Of a stretch of DNA of 52,554 bases, positions 16,118 to 38,916 are shown piece after piece. The notes beneath the pieces are model-generated. The model was not told the DNA's origin, did not search any database, and saw nothing but the letters and a program-made list of their open reading frames with translations. Origin of the DNA: Eubacterium sp. (GTDB lineage: Bacteria; Bacillota; Clostridia; Lachnospirales; Lachnospiraceae); assembly GCA_017619835.1 (NCBI GenBank), contig JAFZRN010000016.1, forward strand, positions 1 to 52,554. Direction: 5' to 3'. The translations under genes were made by a program, and so were the position numbers. Position 1 is the first letter of the stretch; the number at the start of each line of letters is the position of its first letter.

Positions 16118-16144
16118 AATATATTTAATTTCTCTCTCCCTTTC

Positions 16145-16251
16145 GCAGCGTCCGTTTCTAGTTCGGTAAGCGCGGGAGGGCGCAATCCTGTTTCACTTCG
16201 AGGGCCTTCTCCGGCACTCGAAGGGGAACATGGTTGCGGTATACCCGCTTC
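16145..16251 (-). repeat. 107-nt dispersed structured repeat, copy 1
   Basis: Aligned without gaps to 38741-38847 (plus), this copy differs at only 4 of 107 positions. The centre folds as a long hairpin: GCAACC, TGTT and TTCGAGTGCC on one arm, a GGAGAA loop, then GGCCCTCGAA, AACA and GGATTGC on the other. Sequence on toward the PrsW stop (16252-16310) repeats GAAGCGGG and CAGCTG motifs and resembles 38694-38740 more loosely. It lies directly after the prsW-like stop codon and in the same orientation as that gene. Confidence 0.88.
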
Positions 16252-16307
16252 GATATCAGCTGCGCCATTACAACCCGCTTCAATTCACAGCTGCTCTCTT
16301 CTCTCCC

Positions 16308-17366
16308 CTACAGCTGATGAAGAGATGCTCCGCACCCTCTGCAGAAAAACGCCTTAAAACTATTGACCTCCCCACAAACCGGACAACGGATCAGCATATC
16401 CCTATCCGGTTCCGGCATAACCGGCTGCTGCATCTGTGGCTCGGGCATGCCCTGATTCTGCTGTGGCATACCTTGCACAGGCATTCCCTGTGGCTGATAT
16501 GGTGACTGACCCATTGGCTGTCCACCTTGTGCACCCTGCGGCTGATAAGGTGAACCCTGATTCGGAGCAGTATATCCTCCGTATGTCGGAGCCTGATATC
16601 CACCATATGGCTGATAAGGATTAGCCGCAACCCAGTACTGTCTGTACTGCGGTGCCTCATACATTTTCTCATCCTCTTTTTTTGCCATGATAACTCGTCT
16701 GATCGTAAATACATCAGCAACGATTACGAATACAACAAATATGATAGAGAATATCACGCTTTGTGTCATGATACAGAAATCATAGAATGCATGCAGTGAA
16801 GATGCGATCACGAATCCTCTGATAAGATTCGCTCTGCAGCCTGCCCTGTCACCATATGACTTAAGATACTTTGCATTTCCATAATAGTAACCCATGAAGA
16901 TTGCACACATTGCATGTGCGGGAATGGCAAGAAGACCTCTGGAGATTCCTGTCCTAAGGACGAAGCCCGCATTTGCACGGAAAAGATACATGATATTTTC
17001 CGTAGCAGCAAAGCCCATGGAACCAAACAGACAATATACTATTCCATCGAACTTATAATTGAATTTCTTATTTCTCCAGGTACAAAGGTATGCGGCAAGG
17101 AACTTAAACCCTTCCTCTATGATACCTACTCCGAAAAATGCCGTCATTGCATGATATATAAGATATGTCCCGCCGAACGTAATATCAACCATTTTTCCGA
17201 CAAGAAGCTCACCGATGATCGTTGGAATAACAGATAGAACACCGAGAAAGAATATCTTCAACAGAAGTGATATCGGCTCCTTCTCATGCTTATCCTGAAA
17301 ATATATAAATATCATAAGGGCGATTGCAGGAATAACTGCAATCAAAACTATCACTAAATTACTCAA
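16308..17366 (-). CDS. PrsW-family intramembrane metalloprotease with C-terminal zinc ribbon
   Basis: A 352-residue polytopic membrane protein. The PrsW signatures are IIEEGFKFLAA (Glu84, Glu85), GFAATENIMY (Glu123, Asn124), AHAMCAIFMG (His151) and LHAFYDF (His192). After about residue 235 comes a cytoplasmic Pro/Gln/Gly/Tyr-rich linker (PYQPYGGYQ, QGMPVQGMPQ), then a four-cysteine zinc ribbon (CPVCG and CRGCG, about 328-346). The start is TTG 17366, six bases after AGGAG. PrsW proteins cleave membrane proteins such as anti-sigma factors; no obvious target is encoded next to it. It lies ten bases after the upstream membrane protein gene. Confidence 0.88.
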   Translation of the reverse strand: MSNLVIVLIAVIPAIALMIFIYFQDKHEKEPISLLLKIFFLGVLSVIPTIIGELLVGKMVDITFGGTYLIYHAMTAFFGVGIIEEGFKFLAAYLCTWRNKKFNYKFDGIVYCLFGSMGFAATENIMYLFRANAGFVLRTGISRGLLAIPAHAMCAIFMGYYYGNAKYLKSYGDRAGCRANLIRGFVIASSLHAFYDFCIMTQSVIFSIIFVVFVIVADVFTIRRVIMAKKEDEKMYEAPQYRQYWVAANPYQPYGGYQAPTYGGYTAPNQGSPYQPQGAQGGQPMGQSPYQPQGMPVQGMPQQNQGMPEPQMQQPVMPEPDRDMLIRCPVCGEVNSFKAFFCRGCGASLHQL

Positions 17367-33532: not shown

Positions 33533-34879
33533 TTATACCCCCGAATCGTTGAAGCGCTTCACTGCATTTGCTCTGTCTGCAAGTGAACCCTTCCTAGGTT
33601 TCTTACTGTTGTCTGTTTCAAATGATTCCTCACCGGCAGATGATTCATCACTTTCTGTGGCGCTGTCGCCATCATAATTCTTAAGGTTCATATTACCGTA
33701 TTTGTTAAGAGTCATATTTTTAGATGCAGGGGATCTGTCTTCCTGAGGAGCCTGTCCCGTAGCTGCTTCCATGAAACGCTCTGAAAGAGTCTTCTTACCG
33801 CTGGCCTTTCTCTTTGCAACTTCCTTCTCAGCCTTAAGTCTCTGAGCCTCGACAATCTTCTCCATATCAACATGGTTATAATAGAAATTAGTACCAACTG
33901 TGATAAGGAAACTTAAAAGAGCAGAAGTTGCCCAATAGATACCAAGACCTGCAGGTGCACTTACTGTAACCGCAAATGACATGATAGGCATGAAGTACAT
34001 AGTTCTCTTCATTGACTTCATCTGAGCATCCTGCTGAGGATCACCTGTCTCACCCATAGGTGTAACAAGCATAGCAAGAAGCTGACATACAAATGAAGCG
34101 ATCGGTATGATCAAAGCCGGTGTAAGTCTGAGTCCCGGTGCCTCTGTCAGGTTGATTCCGAATATAAAATTGTTAACTCTGCTGATTGCTTCCTGATTAT
34201 TTGCGATAGCTGTTGCTACATCAGGATTAGCACTGAATGCCTGTGAAAGCTTTGCAAAAAGATCATCATTACATTTGAAAATGATGTCTATGATCTGCTC
34301 AAAAATCTTTTTACCTTCATCGGTTCCGAAATTAGTTGCAATATTAAACTCTGAAAGTTTTGATGCAATTCTTGTTATCTTATTATCAGCTATAAATGTA
34401 TTCAGTATTTCATATGCACCATTAGTCTTTGAGATAGCAGTAGCTATAGGCTCATAAAGTGCATGGATCTTCGGAACATATGATGGGATATTCTGGATAA
34501 CATTATAAAGTCCGATAAATATGGGGAACTGAAGAAGTGAAGTAAGACAACCCTGGGTCATCTTAATACCATATTTTTCCTGAAGCTCTTTTGTTTCTTT
34601 CTGCTGGGCAAGCATAGAGTCCTGATCTTTCTTACCCTTATACTTCTTTGTGATCTTATTAAACTCAGGACGAAGATACTGTTGAACCTTAGACGATTTT
34701 GTCTGTTTCAGATTGAATGGGAACAGAATTAATCTTGTTACTATAGTAAATATAACTATACTGAGAGCGATTGATTCAACACCCATTCCGTTAAATAAAA
34801 TATAGATAGCATTAAAAATCTTGCCCAGTAACCAGGTTACCGGACCCATGATAATGCCAGTGTTCTGTGTTAAGATCAT
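33533..34879 (-). CDS. yidC: Membrane protein insertase YidC/OxaA
   Basis: A 448-residue insertase. It lacks the large periplasmic domain, as in Gram-positives. About five transmembrane segments are visible, with the conserved SIVIFTIVTRLILFPFNLKQ and QGCLTSLLQFPIFIGLYNVI regions. An insertion of about 100 residues (about 130-235) separates two hydrophobic parts. The C-terminal cytoplasmic tail is long and charged (about 360-448). GAGGAG lies six bases before the start. It inserts membrane proteins alone or with SecYEG. It lies between yidD and jag. Confidence 0.95.
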   Translation of the reverse strand: MILTQNTGIIMGPVTWLLGKIFNAIYILFNGMGVESIALSIVIFTIVTRLILFPFNLKQTKSSKVQQYLRPEFNKITKKYKGKKDQDSMLAQQKETKELQEKYGIKMTQGCLTSLLQFPIFIGLYNVIQNIPSYVPKIHALYEPIATAISKTNGAYEILNTFIADNKITRIASKLSEFNIATNFGTDEGKKIFEQIIDIIFKCNDDLFAKLSQAFSANPDVATAIANNQEAISRVNNFIFGINLTEAPGLRLTPALIIPIASFVCQLLAMLVTPMGETGDPQQDAQMKSMKRTMYFMPIMSFAVTVSAPAGLGIYWATSALLSFLITVGTNFYYNHVDMEKIVEAQRLKAEKEVAKRKASGKKTLSERFMEAATGQAPQEDRSPASKNMTLNKYGNMNLKNYDGDSATESDESSAGEESFETDNSKKPRKGSLADRANAVKRFNDSGV

Positions 34880-34890
34880 TACGAACTCCT

Positions 34891-35103
34891 CTATGGAACC
34901 GGATCATATCCGCCCTTATTAAAAGGGTTACATCTCAGTATCCTCCATACCGAAAGCAGAGTACCCCTTACAAATCCATACTTTTCATAAGCCTGAATAG
35001 CATATTCAGAGCAGGTTGGATAGAATATACAGGTTCCATGTCCTTTTAAATTAGACAAATGTTTTCTGTAGAATTTGATAATAGCAATACAAATCTTTTT
35101 CAT
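34891..35103 (-). CDS. yidD: Membrane protein insertion efficiency factor YidD
   Basis: A 70-residue protein with an amphipathic N-terminal helix ([17 protein letters not shown]) and the family motif [19 protein letters not shown] with CRYPxCSxYA-type cysteines, then [20 protein letters not shown]. Normal length. It lies between rnpA and yidC as in most Firmicutes. Confidence 0.95.
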
Positions 35104-35128
35104 AACACATTATTAATAGGTAGAAACT

Positions 35129-35464
35129 CTACAAAGCTATCTTCGATATACGACATAAATGCAGGAAAGCGCTTTCTATTTCGTGAAAGTTCTTTCCCTT
35201 TGCCGTATTTCTTGCTACCACAACTATATCGTAGCCTGATTTTATACTTTCTTTATTAAGACGATAGCTTTCTCTTATGAGACGAGTTATCCTGTGTCTA
35301 ACAACACTATTACCGACCTTCTTACTTACAGAGATTCCAATTCTACTGTACATCCGGTCGTTTGGTCTGATGTACATCACAAGATATTTGTTAGCCGACG
35401 ATTCTCTGTGGTTATACACCTGGCTAAAATCTCTGTAATTCTTAAGTGAATTGATATTTTTCAT
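35129..35464 (-). CDS. rnpA: Ribonuclease P protein component
   Basis: A 111-residue basic protein subunit of RNase P, which matures tRNA 5' ends. The RNR motif is present as KVGNSVVRHRITRLIRESYR (about 48-67), preceded by RIGISVSKK. It lies eight bases after rpmH in the canonical origin-adjacent operon. Confidence 0.95.
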   Translation of the reverse strand: MKNINSLKNYRDFSQVYNHRESSANKYLVMYIRPNDRMYSRIGISVSKKVGNSVVRHRITRLIRESYRLNKESIKSGYDIVVVARNTAKGKNFHEIESAFLHLCRISKIAL

Positions 35465-35471
35465 AAATCAC

Positions 35472-35606
35472 TTACACTGTGAGAGCTTTTCTGCCCTTTG
35501 CACGTCTTGCTGAAAGAACCTTACGTCCGTTAGCTGTACTCATTCTCTTTCTGAAGCCGTGAACCTTAGACCTCTGTCTTTTCTTAGGCTGAAATGTCAT
35601 TTTCAT
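35472..35606 (-). CDS. rpmH: 50S ribosomal protein L34
   Basis: A 44-residue protein, [18 protein letters not shown] followed by [20 protein letters not shown] and RKALTV. It matches L34 along its full length and is the first gene of the leftward operon. A GGAAGTATACAG stretch precedes the start. Confidence 0.97.
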
Positions 35607-35659
35607 AACTGTATACTTCCTTTCTCATTATATTTTTGCTCTAAGGGCAAATCTACAAT

Positions 35660-35688
35660 ATTATATTTTTATAGGCCCTAAAAGTCAA
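35660..35688 (-). promoter_or_regulatory. Promoter of rpmH-rnpA-yidD-yidC-jag
   Basis: TTGACT (35683-35688), 17 bases and TATAAT (35660-35665) on the minus strand, about 50 bases before the rpmH start. Confidence 0.88.
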
Positions 35689-35914
35689 GTAAAATAAGCC
35701 TTTTCGGGCTATTACTTATTAACAAAAAAAATTTTCGTTAACATAAGTTTTCAACATTTTGTTAATATTTTGTTGATAACTTGCGTATTTTCTGTTCATT
35801 TCTGTGTGATAAATTTGAAATTTGACTTATTTATTGATTTTTTTAAAATGTTACAATTCACAATTTTCGGTCCGTAAATTTACATAATTTACTGTTTATG
35901 CGGGCTCTAAAAAC

Positions 35915-35943
35915 TTGTGAAAAACATCACTTTGTAGTAGAAT
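35915..35943 (+). promoter_or_regulatory. Promoter of dnaA
   Basis: TTGTGA (35915-35920), 17 bases, TAGAAT (35938-35943). The ribosome binding site TAGGAGAT follows before ATG 35979. Confidence 0.75.
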
Positions 35944-35978
35944 ATAGAAGTGTTATTTTGCCCTGTAGGAGATAAAAA

Positions 35979-37406
35979 ATGAAAGAACAGATTATTAATA
36001 ACTGGGATCAGATACTTAATATTCTAGAAACACATTATGACGTATCAAAAATAATAATCGAAACATGGATCAAGCCTCTTAATATATATGATATCAAGGA
36101 TAATACTATCTATTTTTATGTTGATGAGAAAAGAGGCAAGCACGGAGTAGATTATCTTCGCAATAAGGGATATGATATGTTCCTTCTTTCCTCGATAAGA
36201 GAGTTTTTTAATGACTCATCCATTGAACTTATCATCGACGAAAAATATAAATTTATTGTAAATGAGGACGAAGGCTCTGAAGAATCTATATCTATAGATA
36301 CTCCTTACAGCGCCGATTATTATGCTGCTCTTAAACGTAGTAATCTTGATCCTAATTATACATTTGAGAATTTCGTCATCGGCGAAAGTAACAGGCATGC
36401 CTATGCAACCTGTACTGCTGTTGCCGATCTTCCGAGCCAGGATGCACTTAATCCACTTTTCCTTTATGGAGGTTCCGGACTTGGTAAGACACATCTCATA
36501 CAGTCAATAGCACATTTTATACTTCAGCATAATCCATCTATGAATGTTCTCTATGCTTCATCGGAGAAATTCACTAACGATATCATTACGGCTATCCAGA
36601 ATAATAAGACTGAAGAGTTCCGCCAGAAATATCGTCAGGTAGATGTACTTATAATAGATGATATTCAGGAAATCATTGGTAAAGAGAGAACCCAGCAGGA
36701 ATTCTTCAACACATTTAACTTCTTATATGAAGAAAAGAAGCAGATAATTCTTTCATCCGATAGACCGCCAAAGGAAATGAAACACTTAGAGGAAAGACTT
36801 CGTTCACGTTTTGAATGGGGTGTTCCAATCGATATCCAGGCTCCTGATTATGAGACACGTGTAGCAATACTTCATAATAAAGCTGATAAGCTCGGACTTA
36901 ACGGACTTCCGGAATATGCTTTCAATTATATAGCTGAAAACCTGTATTCAAATGTTCGTCAGCTTGAAGGTGCTCTTAATATCATTAAGATGTATCTCAA
37001 AATCAACAATATCAACCTTTTCTATGATAACAAGAATGATGAGGAATATAAGCAGGAGATAATGGACACTATAAAGGACGCACTTAAAGACCTTATCTCG
37101 GAAGACTCCGATATGAGTGTAACTCCTGATAAGATATTATCAACAGTTTCTGAACATATGAGTGTTAGTATCAATGACATTAAGTCCACAAAAAGAAGTA
37201 AGGACATTGCAATCGCACGTCAGACTGTTATGTATCTATGCCGTAATATGACTGACAAGAGTCTTCAGTCTATAGGAGAAACAGTAGGCGGAAAGGATCA
37301 TGCCACTGTTTATAACGGTATTAAAAGAATAGAAGAAAAGATCAAGAAGGATTCAGCCTTTGAATCTTCCGTAAATGTCATCATAAACAAACTTAATCCA
37401 CAATAA
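35979..37406 (+). CDS. dnaA: Chromosomal replication initiator DnaA
   Basis: A 475-residue AAA+ initiator. Domain I (about 1-85, helicase-loading) includes ETWIKPLNIYDI. A short acidic linker (EDEGSEES) makes domain II. Domain III has Walker A GGSGLGKTHL (about 163-172), Walker B VLIIDDIQ (about 224-231) and the arginine-finger region ERLRSRFEWG. Domain IV has the DnaA-box-binding signature GGKDHATVYNGIKRIEEKI near the C-terminus. Slightly longer than Bacillus DnaA. It lies at the right end of oriC. Confidence 0.98.
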   Translation: MKEQIINNWDQILNILETHYDVSKIIIETWIKPLNIYDIKDNTIYFYVDEKRGKHGVDYLRNKGYDMFLLSSIREFFNDSSIELIIDEKYKFIVNEDEGSEESISIDTPYSADYYAALKRSNLDPNYTFENFVIGESNRHAYATCTAVADLPSQDALNPLFLYGGSGLGKTHLIQSIAHFILQHNPSMNVLYASSEKFTNDIITAIQNNKTEEFRQKYRQVDVLIIDDIQEIIGKERTQQEFFNTFNFLYEEKKQIILSSDRPPKEMKHLEERLRSRFEWGVPIDIQAPDYETRVAILHNKADKLGLNGLPEYAFNYIAENLYSNVRQLEGALNIIKMYLKINNINLFYDNKNDEEYKQEIMDTIKDALKDLISEDSDMSVTPDKILSTVSEHMSVSINDIKSTKRSKDIAIARQTVMYLCRNMTDKSLQSIGETVGGKDHATVYNGIKRIEEKIKKDSAFESSVNVIINKLNPQ

Positions 37407-37527
37407 TAAAAGTCATCCAACACATTTTCGGTAAAAAAATAAACACCGGAAAGTGACTGAAATAAATGCTTGAAAGCACATTTCAACAAATCAACAGCCC
37501 TTATTACTATTACTACTAATTAATCTA

Positions 37528-37533
37528 TATAAT
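37528..37533 (+). promoter_or_regulatory. Possible -10 element for dnaN
   Basis: TATAAT lies 38 bases before the dnaN start in the 164-base dnaA-dnaN gap. The matching -35 (TTACTA-like, about 37504) is weak. Confidence 0.4.
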
Positions 37534-37570
37534 AATTGTAAAAGGCGCGAGCATATGAAAGGACAAAATT

Positions 37571-38686
37571 ATGAGAATCAAATGTAAAAAGTCAAACCTT
37601 CAGGCAGGAATAAGTATTGTCTCAAAGGCAGTAGCTGCTAAGACAACAAAGCCAATCCTTGAATGTATACTTCTTGAGGCTAAGGGTGGAGAGCTTAAGC
37701 TTACTGCTAACAATCTTACTCTCGGAATCGAGACATTTATCGAATGTACTATCCTGGAAGAAGGAGTTATAGCACTTAATGCCAAGCTTTTCTCAGATAT
37801 TATAAGAAAGCTTCAGGATAGTGAGATAGATATAGAAACAAATTCTGATTATAAGACAACAATTGTTTGTGAGAAGTCACGCTTCAGTATTCCATGCTGG
37901 ACAGGTGAAGAATTTCCCGAGCTTACATCTGTTAATAAGGAAAAGAGTATTGTTATCTCACAGCTTGGTCTTAAGGATATTATAAGACAGACAATATTTT
38001 CTGTTTCGGATAATGAAAATTCAAAGCTTATGAGTGGTGAGCTTTTCGAAGTTAAGAATAATGAGCTTTCGGTTGTATCACTTGATGGTCACAGAATATC
38101 AATGAGAAAAGTAGGACTTAAGGGTGAGAATTCTGATGTAACAGCAGTTGTTCCCGGAAAGACTCTTCAGGAAGTTAGTAAGATCATAAGCGGAGATTCC
38201 GAGGAAGAGGTTACTCTTTATTTTGCAGACAGAAATCTCAGTTTTGAATTTGACAGAACAAGAGTTGTTTCAAGACTTATCGAAGGTGAATATTTCAAGA
38301 TAGCTCATATGCTTACAATGGATACTGATCTTATGATCAAGGCTAATAGAAATGAGCTCATCGGTTGTATAGACAGAGCATCTCTTCTTATCCAGGAAAC
38401 TGATAAGAAGCCGATCATCGTAAGTGTTAAGAATGATAATAATCTTTATATCAGACTTGATACCAATATAGGATCTCTTAATGAAGAGATGGAGATTGAA
38501 AAAGAAGGCGGCGAGATCATAATCGGATTTAATCCTTCATTTATAATGGATGCTCTCAGAGTTATTGATGATGATAAGGTGAATATTTATATGAAGGATT
38601 CAAAGAGTCCGTGTCTTATCAAGGATGCGGATGGTACCTTCACGTACATAATTCTTCCGATCAACATCAATCCTGACGCATATTAA
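37571..38686 (+). CDS. dnaN: DNA polymerase III beta subunit (sliding clamp)
   Basis: A 371-residue clamp with the three-domain beta fold. It begins MRIKCKKSNLQAGISIVSKA, contains ETNSDYKTTI in domain I and MSGELFEVKNNELSVVSLDG in domain II, and ends TFTYIILPININPDAY, close to the usual 'IMPxRI' terminus. It tethers polymerase III to DNA. It follows dnaA in the canonical order. After its stop comes an unusual 230-base gap with a structured repeat before the S4 gene. Confidence 0.97.
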   Translation: MRIKCKKSNLQAGISIVSKAVAAKTTKPILECILLEAKGGELKLTANNLTLGIETFIECTILEEGVIALNAKLFSDIIRKLQDSEIDIETNSDYKTTIVCEKSRFSIPCWTGEEFPELTSVNKEKSIVISQLGLKDIIRQTIFSVSDNENSKLMSGELFEVKNNELSVVSLDGHRISMRKVGLKGENSDVTAVVPGKTLQEVSKIISGDSEEEVTLYFADRNLSFEFDRTRVVSRLIEGEYFKIAHMLTMDTDLMIKANRNELIGCIDRASLLIQETDKKPIIVSVKNDNNLYIRLDTNIGSLNEEMEIEKEGGEIIIGFNPSFIMDALRVIDDDKVNIYMKDSKSPCLIKDADGTFTYIILPININPDAY

Positions 38687-38740
38687 GAGATAGAGTAGGG
38701 GCAGCTGGAAATTAAAGTTGTGTAAGAGCAGCTGTGAGTT

Positions 38741-38847
38741 GAAGCGGGTATACCGCAACCATGTTCCCCTTCGAGTGCCGGAGAAGGCACCCGAAGTGAA
38801 ACAGGATTGCGCCCTCCCGCGCTTACTGAATTAGAAACGGACGCTGC
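38741..38847 (+). repeat. 107-nt dispersed structured repeat, copy 2
   Basis: This copy matches 16145-16251 (minus strand) at 103 of 107 positions with no gaps. The central hairpin is TTCGAGTGCC, a GGAGAA loop and GGCACCCGAA, extended by TGTT/AACA and GCAACC/GGATTGC. The stretch before it (38694-38740) has TAGGGGCAGCTG and GAGCAGCTGTGA, resembling the region upstream of copy 1. It lies between dnaN and the S4-domain gene, in the orientation of dnaN. Confidence 0.88.
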
Positions 38848-38852
38848 AGATA

Positions 38853-38887
38853 ATGTGACAAAACATCTCTGAGAAGAATTGTCACAT
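38853..38887 (+). repeat. ATGTGACAA hairpin after the structured repeat
   Basis: ATGTGACAA and TTGTCACAT form a nine-base stem around a 17-base loop, five bases after the 107-nt repeat. The stem shares the GTGACA core with the hairpins at 10861-10889 and 46399-46427. Confidence 0.6.
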
Positions 38888-38916
38888 AATGAATCGTAAA
38901 TTGAGAGGATTTATAA

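Follow-up and report, generated by a model that had tools for sequence, protein, structure and literature searches.

Enterobacteria, pneumococci and Neisseria are well known to carry small stem-loop repeats dispersed through their genomes. REP sequences are palindromes of 20-40 bp that carry a GTAG tag and flank a RAYT gene, and the attC sites of integrons, to which the element described below can be likened, are long imperfect hairpins in tandem units that are conserved in structure rather than in sequence and that have constant R/L boxes and a linked integron integrase. ERIC (IRU, RU-1) is a palindromic repeat of transcribed intergenic regions and is given as 127 bp long. A 7-bp terminal inverted repeat, TA ends and a target-site duplication are listed for it (PMC2229807), and in Yersinia it has been argued to affect how the mRNA is processed, or how stable it is, where the upstream cistron ends (PMC2229807, PMC10969869). 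BOX elements are built from boxA-boxB(n)-boxC modules. In Streptococcus pneumoniae they are described as modular stem-loops with a variable number of modules that are over-represented between convergent genes; several copies are expressed, and one forms a composite RNA with T-box riboswitches (PMC3049150). REP/BIME sequences and CGTC-tagged palindromes are described as lying mostly downstream of coding regions, with many of them plausibly transcribed, and the CGTC super-family as being without a dedicated transposase (PMC3733652). For the Lachnospiraceae, no such repeat family was found among the best-ranked literature matches in open-licence papers.

The window studied here, a stretch of 52,554 nucleotides from a Eubacterium sp. 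of the Lachnospiraceae, had been predicted to hold a 107-nt repeat in two copies, and 16145-16251 and the reverse complement of 38741-38847 indeed align without gaps and with four differences. The repeat is real, but it is only the core of an element of ~120 nt and the predicted coordinates are too short: one arm of the outermost stem (16259-16263; 38728-38732) falls outside them, and a covariance model built from the 11 copies of this genome matches the window at 16143-16264 (minus strand) and 38727-38849 (plus strand). The count of two was too low as well, since the genome holds 11 near-full copies in addition to half-copies, by which chance is excluded. Both window copies lie 3' of a gene and on the strand of that gene, as predicted, and Pfam assigns these genes to a PrsW-family protease and to dnaN. 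The features are as follows.

16145..16263, minus strand: copy 1, from outermost stem to outermost stem, flanked by two minus-strand genes, one prsW-like and one of the beta-lactamase family (Pfam)
16274..16294, minus strand: additional 5' half unit immediately preceding copy 1, GCAGCTGTGAATTGAAGCGGG (pattern match at 16274-16292 with 0 mismatches)
16308..17366, minus strand: upstream gene of copy 1, a PrsW family intramembrane metalloprotease (PF13367)
37571..38686, plus strand: upstream gene of copy 2, dnaN (PF00712, PF02767, PF02768)
38701..38717, plus strand: further 5' half unit, degenerate, preceding copy 2, GCAGCTGGAAATTAAAG (recognized by eye, missed by the half-unit pattern)
38728..38847, plus strand: copy 2, between dnaN and yaaA
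38850..38890, plus strand: distinct inverted repeat, ATAATGTGACAA...TTGTCACATAAT, immediately following copy 2 (self-match of 1-41 with 41-1 at 78%)

A palindrome TGTGACAA...TTGTCACA follows directly 3' of two of the 11 copies of this genome, at window 38850-38890 and at the copy on contig C39 (L011), and the two are similar. Within window 34879-38849 the gene directions switch before 35979, followed by dnaN, so that this is probably the region of the replication origin; both window copies point away from it, and the directions of transcription and replication can therefore not be told apart there.

The genome of the window (G000; 2.75 Mb in 44 contigs) carries the 11 near-full copies at 10 loci, two of them in one spacer, and compared with copy 1, the remaining ten reach 82-93% identity within the aligned stretch; short half-copies adjoin some of them. 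The genome search that had been proposed along with the original prediction thus yielded more than the two copies, a number that would have spoken against a dispersed element. No conserved reading frame is present, as had been predicted: a 12-codon ATG..TGA frame is intact in only seven of the 11 copies (by eye), is broken in the remaining ones by indels that keep the pairing, and was not seen in the aligned copies of relatives, and a coding role was rejected. Rfam gave no match at gathering score at the element in the window, where only a tRNA elsewhere was reported, nor at 11 loci of relatives, and a permissive scan returned only matches far below the gathering scores. With neither an Rfam nor a coding match, the proposal of an undescribed interspersed RNA or mobile non-coding element is supported. 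An intrinsic terminator was also rejected; as stated in the original prediction, no T-run directly 3' of the hairpin was seen at the window copies, and terminator-like hairpins, where seen (L084, L104, L004; by eye), precede the element. Most of the assemblies are drafts, whose contigs are broken up by tandem repeats.

As a small stem-loop-forming intergenic repeat the element is like ERIC, with which its length and intergenic place agree, but its ends vary in sequence, no target-site duplication was found and it was seen in one orientation only in 23 copies. With BOX, going by its published description, it shares the modular stem-loop, although the modularity is of another kind; unlike BOX, every assignable copy is located between co-directional genes. 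It also lies downstream of coding regions, like REP/BIME and the CGTC-tagged palindromes, yet with ~120 nt and conserved internal loops it differs from REP. CGTC-tagged REPs have an unpaired CGTC tag at one end; the antisense strand of most 3' ends in this genome reads GCAGCGTCCG or similar, but several copies of relatives have GTACG at that position, and the length does not fit. Constant end boxes and a gene cassette between units, in which attC differs from the element, are lacking here. A RAYT/REP system was rejected as far as tested, as the single Y1_Tnp match of the genome (L118) has neither the element nor a model match in the surrounding 3.3 kb; no Y1 transposase match was obtained in the carriers G004, G006 and G015, two of which are incomplete genomes. 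The Y1 match itself, a 205-aa frame on the minus strand of G000 contig C2 (~75239-75565), is flanked by the palindromes GGGGTCTGACCCC and GGGGTCAGACCCC (by eye), which resemble the terminal inverted repeat motif GGGGWSAS of PMC3733652.

Read on the upstream gene's strand, the element is predicted to form one long imperfect hairpin. The central hairpin with its GGAGAA loop, as originally described, is the predicted fold of the gene-sense strand (z-scores of -3.3 to -4.8), and none of 200 shuffled sequences was as stable as either window copy on either strand. For the 11 copies of this genome RNAalifold predicted 34 pairs, ten of them with two-sided changes. In a 32-pair structure 97.7% of the 352 cells are paired, and two-sided changes that keep the pairing affect 10 of the 32 pairs and 23 cells, whereas shuffles average 4.3 pairs and 5.9 cells (none of 500 reached the observed values, in a procedure that ignores the relatedness of the copies); one-sided changes occur in two cells only. 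When the partner was slid by one to three columns, just 0-2 two-sided pairs were left. One of five covariation measures, further pair types, was not above the shuffles (168 of 500 as high). The covariance model and the test for compensatory changes that had been suggested with the prediction thus both came out positive.

The ends of the element are conserved as a stem and not as a sequence, since three of the five outermost pairs change on both sides among the copies of this genome, and across 17 sequences from five genomes these pairs hold in 17, 17, 17, 16 and 16 of 17. Other pairs are weaker across species (10 to 17 of 17, and 4 to 11 of 11 in a second alignment), partly reflecting poor alignment, and pairing is less well conserved in the middle and basal stems than at the ends. 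In the resulting architecture of ~113-122 nt, a terminal stem of 5-7 bp with conserved pairing and variable sequence is accompanied by unpaired boxes that are conserved. The middle stems vary, though most of their positions pair, and close to the apex lies an internal loop (UUCCCC / GUGAAAC) that is largely conserved; in most copies the loop that caps it contains GGA. Under a GGAAA-type loop, the apical stem of the G064 and G015 copies varies by paired changes. G-U pairs are rare (26 of 751 pairs in the predicted sense folds of 20 copies). The antisense strand of these 20 copies folds even better on average (-53.1 versus -47.1 kcal/mol for sense). The models match the antisense strand of the copies of this genome weakly, with ~30-36 versus 124-149 bits, as a near-palindrome would, and these matches were not counted.

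While a first blastn search of 60 relatives gave no match, covariance models identified 13 diverged members in four of the 60 other genomes of the genus. Model R1, built from the copies of the window's genome only, first found G004 and one G006 copy among the 61 genus genomes; R2 added two further copies in G006, one in G064 and one in G015, and a DNA search with the G064 copy revealed more copies in G064 and G015. The final model R3 yielded 24 full-model matches with E below 1e-8 in five of the 61 genomes, although 11 of these 24 members had themselves been used to build it. They comprise 11 matches in G000, five in G064, four in G015, three in G006 and one in G004, where the counts for G004 (58% complete) and G006 (73% complete) are minima. 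The members have in common the terminal stem, the boxes beside it and the apical internal loop, whereas the intervening stems differ, and in two matches each of G064 and G015 the 3' arm is replaced. The count excludes low-scoring matches in G083, G036 and G006:C12 (E 0.67-0.94), as well as a partial match of 35 nt at the end of a G064 contig (E 0.17).

Outside the genus, blastn, covariance and pattern searches yielded no convincing member. Blastn was negative in 24 genomes of the same order, and R1 found only the window's own genome among 397 genomes of the family, in a less sensitive scan in which eight candidates per genome were scored versus 58 in the genus. A pattern for the second type of core matched once in the 397 genomes, which equals the control, and the own-type core pattern retrieved five stretches in a wider contig search, namely the three G006 copies (an uncultured Lachnospiraceae assembly) and two from other phyla. 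The two stretches from other phyla and the single match of the second-type pattern (L108, L109, L207) were taken as chance matches, as they fold without such a hairpin and are spanned by long open frames. An origin from phages or plasmids is not supported, given that blastn against both gave no match and that three pattern scans of viral contigs returned 0, 0 and 9 matches, the nine lacking such a hairpin by eye.

The upstream gene is on the strand of the element in 23 of 23 assignable copies, the remaining copy (G064:C19) being located at a contig end, and the downstream open reading frame is on the same strand in 21 of 21, a count that leaves out the G064:C19 copy and two others at contig ends; one of these 21 frames has no Pfam or NCBIfam match. 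All assignable copies are therefore situated between co-directional genes. The first unit, with extra half units included, starts 1-54 nt past the stop codon (median 9.5) and within 1-17 nt in 18 of 22 junctions; the gap to the full copy is larger where half units intervene. At three of the four junctions beyond 17 nt (L084, L104, L004), a terminator-like hairpin is seen by eye at or after the stop codon. Short operon spacers explain part of this closeness. Core operon junctions are among the sites, namely dnaN-yaaA, def-fmt, infB-rbfA and glnA-amt. The downstream genes include the S4-domain yaaA, luxS, ribE, a Mur-ligase-like folC, a pyrimidine phosphorylase, a formyltransferase, a gyrB-like gene, a clp ATPase, a class II tRNA synthetase, yicC, an ammonium transporter, rbfA and an acylphosphatase, the last being the same-strand neighbour of the L104 copy. 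In G006 (L103, 1620-2000) a copy precedes a T-box-like leader (by eye) of a class II tRNA synthetase gene, at which Rfam gave no match at gathering score.

The glnA-amt locus could be compared between the close relatives G064 and G015, in which the coding DNA is identical at 575 of 596 positions and the element at 86 of 116. Five pairs of the apical and terminal stems differ on both sides and no pair there is lost (by eye); pairing in the basal stem is poorer in the G015 copy. Either very fast evolution under a pairing constraint or the replacement of copies by one another accounts for this divergence.

Taken together, we tentatively read the element as a new family of BOX/ERIC-like interspersed stem-loop repeats in operons of some species of one Lachnospiraceae genus, which is probably read as a strand-specific RNA at the 3' end of the upstream gene; the function is the part that we infer. 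Because the element lies between co-directional genes, it would be transcribed as part of a polycistronic mRNA. Both strands fold well, so that hairpin strength alone cannot explain the one-sided orientation, which suggests the action of a strand-specific reader (a ribosome, an RNase or an RNA-binding protein) or of an insertion process that is strand-specific. By analogy with ERIC-, REP- and BOX-type elements in transcripts, its most likely effect would be to determine how the mRNA is processed, or how stable it is, where the upstream gene ends, and putative machinery acting in trans may have spread it. We favour something that reads one strand of the folded molecule, and readers at the level of mRNA and of mobility both fit and are not mutually exclusive. 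The mRNA-level reader is put somewhat ahead because the copies are confined to co-directional junctions and because the pairing is kept at an orthologous locus, whereas the near-absence of G-U intermediates speaks for a mobility-level reader, that is, an enzyme that recognizes the fold in single-stranded DNA or RNA. It also argues against reading at the mRNA level that nearly all pair changes are two-sided, which is unusual for selection on RNA and better fits a DNA-level or copy-templated process, that the shuffles ignore relatedness and one covariation measure did not surpass them, that middle and basal pairing is weaker across species than pairing at the ends, and that the strand bias and the proximity to stop codons could stem from the mode of insertion and from short operon spacers without any function.

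That the element entered by insertion is indicated by the dnaN locus, which served to align one site across the genus. Fifty-three genomes of the genus had a dnaN match, and 30 loci were taken, the window's own and those of 29 relatives. The dnaN-yaaA spacer measures 230 nt in the window's genome versus a median of 13.5 nt (range -62 to 211) in 28 relatives, of which four values are negative due to overlaps or start-codon calls; in the 29th relative yaaA was not found. The C-terminus ILPININPDAY of dnaN is identical in the nearest relatives, whose spacer is without the element, and the genus scans gave no model match at this junction in relatives. The simplest reading is that the element was inserted after the native stop codon. 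Two relatives carry other hairpin-like inserts (by eye) in the same spacer, L142 in G071 and L166 in G036, in which the element is absent.

As a short, non-coding, multi-copy sequence at a site that is empty in relatives, the element resembles a miniature inverted-repeat transposable element (MITE). A purely selfish miniature element is possible, if on balance unlikely. It would move as folded single-stranded DNA or RNA without a role in the mRNA, its pairing would be kept by a mobilizing enzyme that reads the structure, its orientation would result from strand-specific insertion, and purifying selection would remove harmful insertions. The restriction of the copies to one lineage, a terminal stem that keeps pairing instead of sequence, the very few G-U pairs and the differing variants at the glnA-amt locus of close relatives are in line with such an element, as is the A-rich 3' flank, a candidate retroposon tail (A 0.50 versus 0.38 in control spacers, with a control of just 380 nt). 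However, the 11 copies of the window's genome show no target-site duplication (mean flank repeat of 1.73 nt versus 1.78 with shuffled flanks), and no mobilizer was found, the lone Y1 match being flanked by other palindromes. A terminal inverted repeat of constant sequence, which a MITE has in common with an insertion sequence, is likewise missing, as the outermost stem keeps its pairing while its sequence differs between copies, and no partner transposase was found.

The element is also modular. Extra 5' half units directly precede six of the 11 copies of this genome (one degenerate and recognized by eye only), and extra 3' halves follow two. The pattern of the 5' half, allowing up to two mismatches, gave 40 matches versus 10 for the reversed control; those away from full copies all have one or two mismatches, and three that were inspected by eye lack the rest of the element. 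Tandem units occur at the contig end of G064:C28, the end unit R is repeated beyond the 3' end in L140 and L138, and in G076 (L129) a single end-unit-like stretch of 23 nt (96%, E 9e-4) that lacks a hairpin follows a stop codon. Furthermore, four loci of G015 and G064 (L128, L132, L135, L138) share a run of short hairpins (~5 in L132, by eye) that is 87-100% alike and sits between the central hairpin and the last end unit or the contig end. The flanks of L003 and L006 on G000 contig C26 are AT-rich with AGCTAAC / TTAGCT motifs and ~68% alike over 203 nt, and are apparently another repeat module.

These tandem, repeated, solitary and extra end units would be expected of a recombination cassette, in which R (approximately RAAAACGKACGGNNCCTGG in two relatives) would be the site of attachment or cross-over and hairpins H would come and go between copies of R, so that R-H-R, R-H-R-H-R and solo R arise, much as in attC or dif-type modules. 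We consider this improbable, however, for the 5' end lacks the ACGKAC part in the window's genome, and R pairs with the next R while the core differs between the ends (GGTGCC/GGCACC in L136), which a simple crossover of direct repeats would not need. There is similarly little likelihood that the element is a structure-defined mobile non-coding element that homes to gene 3' ends in sense orientation only, perhaps the bacterial equivalent of a SINE, which would spread via a fold-recognized copy of RNA or single-stranded DNA, with the terminal stem kept by pairing, and be maintained strand-specifically at cistron ends. A riboswitch-like, cis-regulatory RNA of the downstream gene is very unlikely, given that the downstream genes have no common pathway, that the first units hug the upstream stop codon and that Rfam gave no match, even though conserved internal loops are flanked by variable stems and all assignable copies have a same-strand frame downstream.

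This family bears on two questions that are usually mixed, namely whether repeats are kept for mobility or for an RNA role at the end of a gene. It helps to tell them apart, because the pairing is conserved while the ends vary and because a single orientation was seen. As copies are located at core operon junctions, an effect on the mRNA, if true, would touch central functions of these bacteria.
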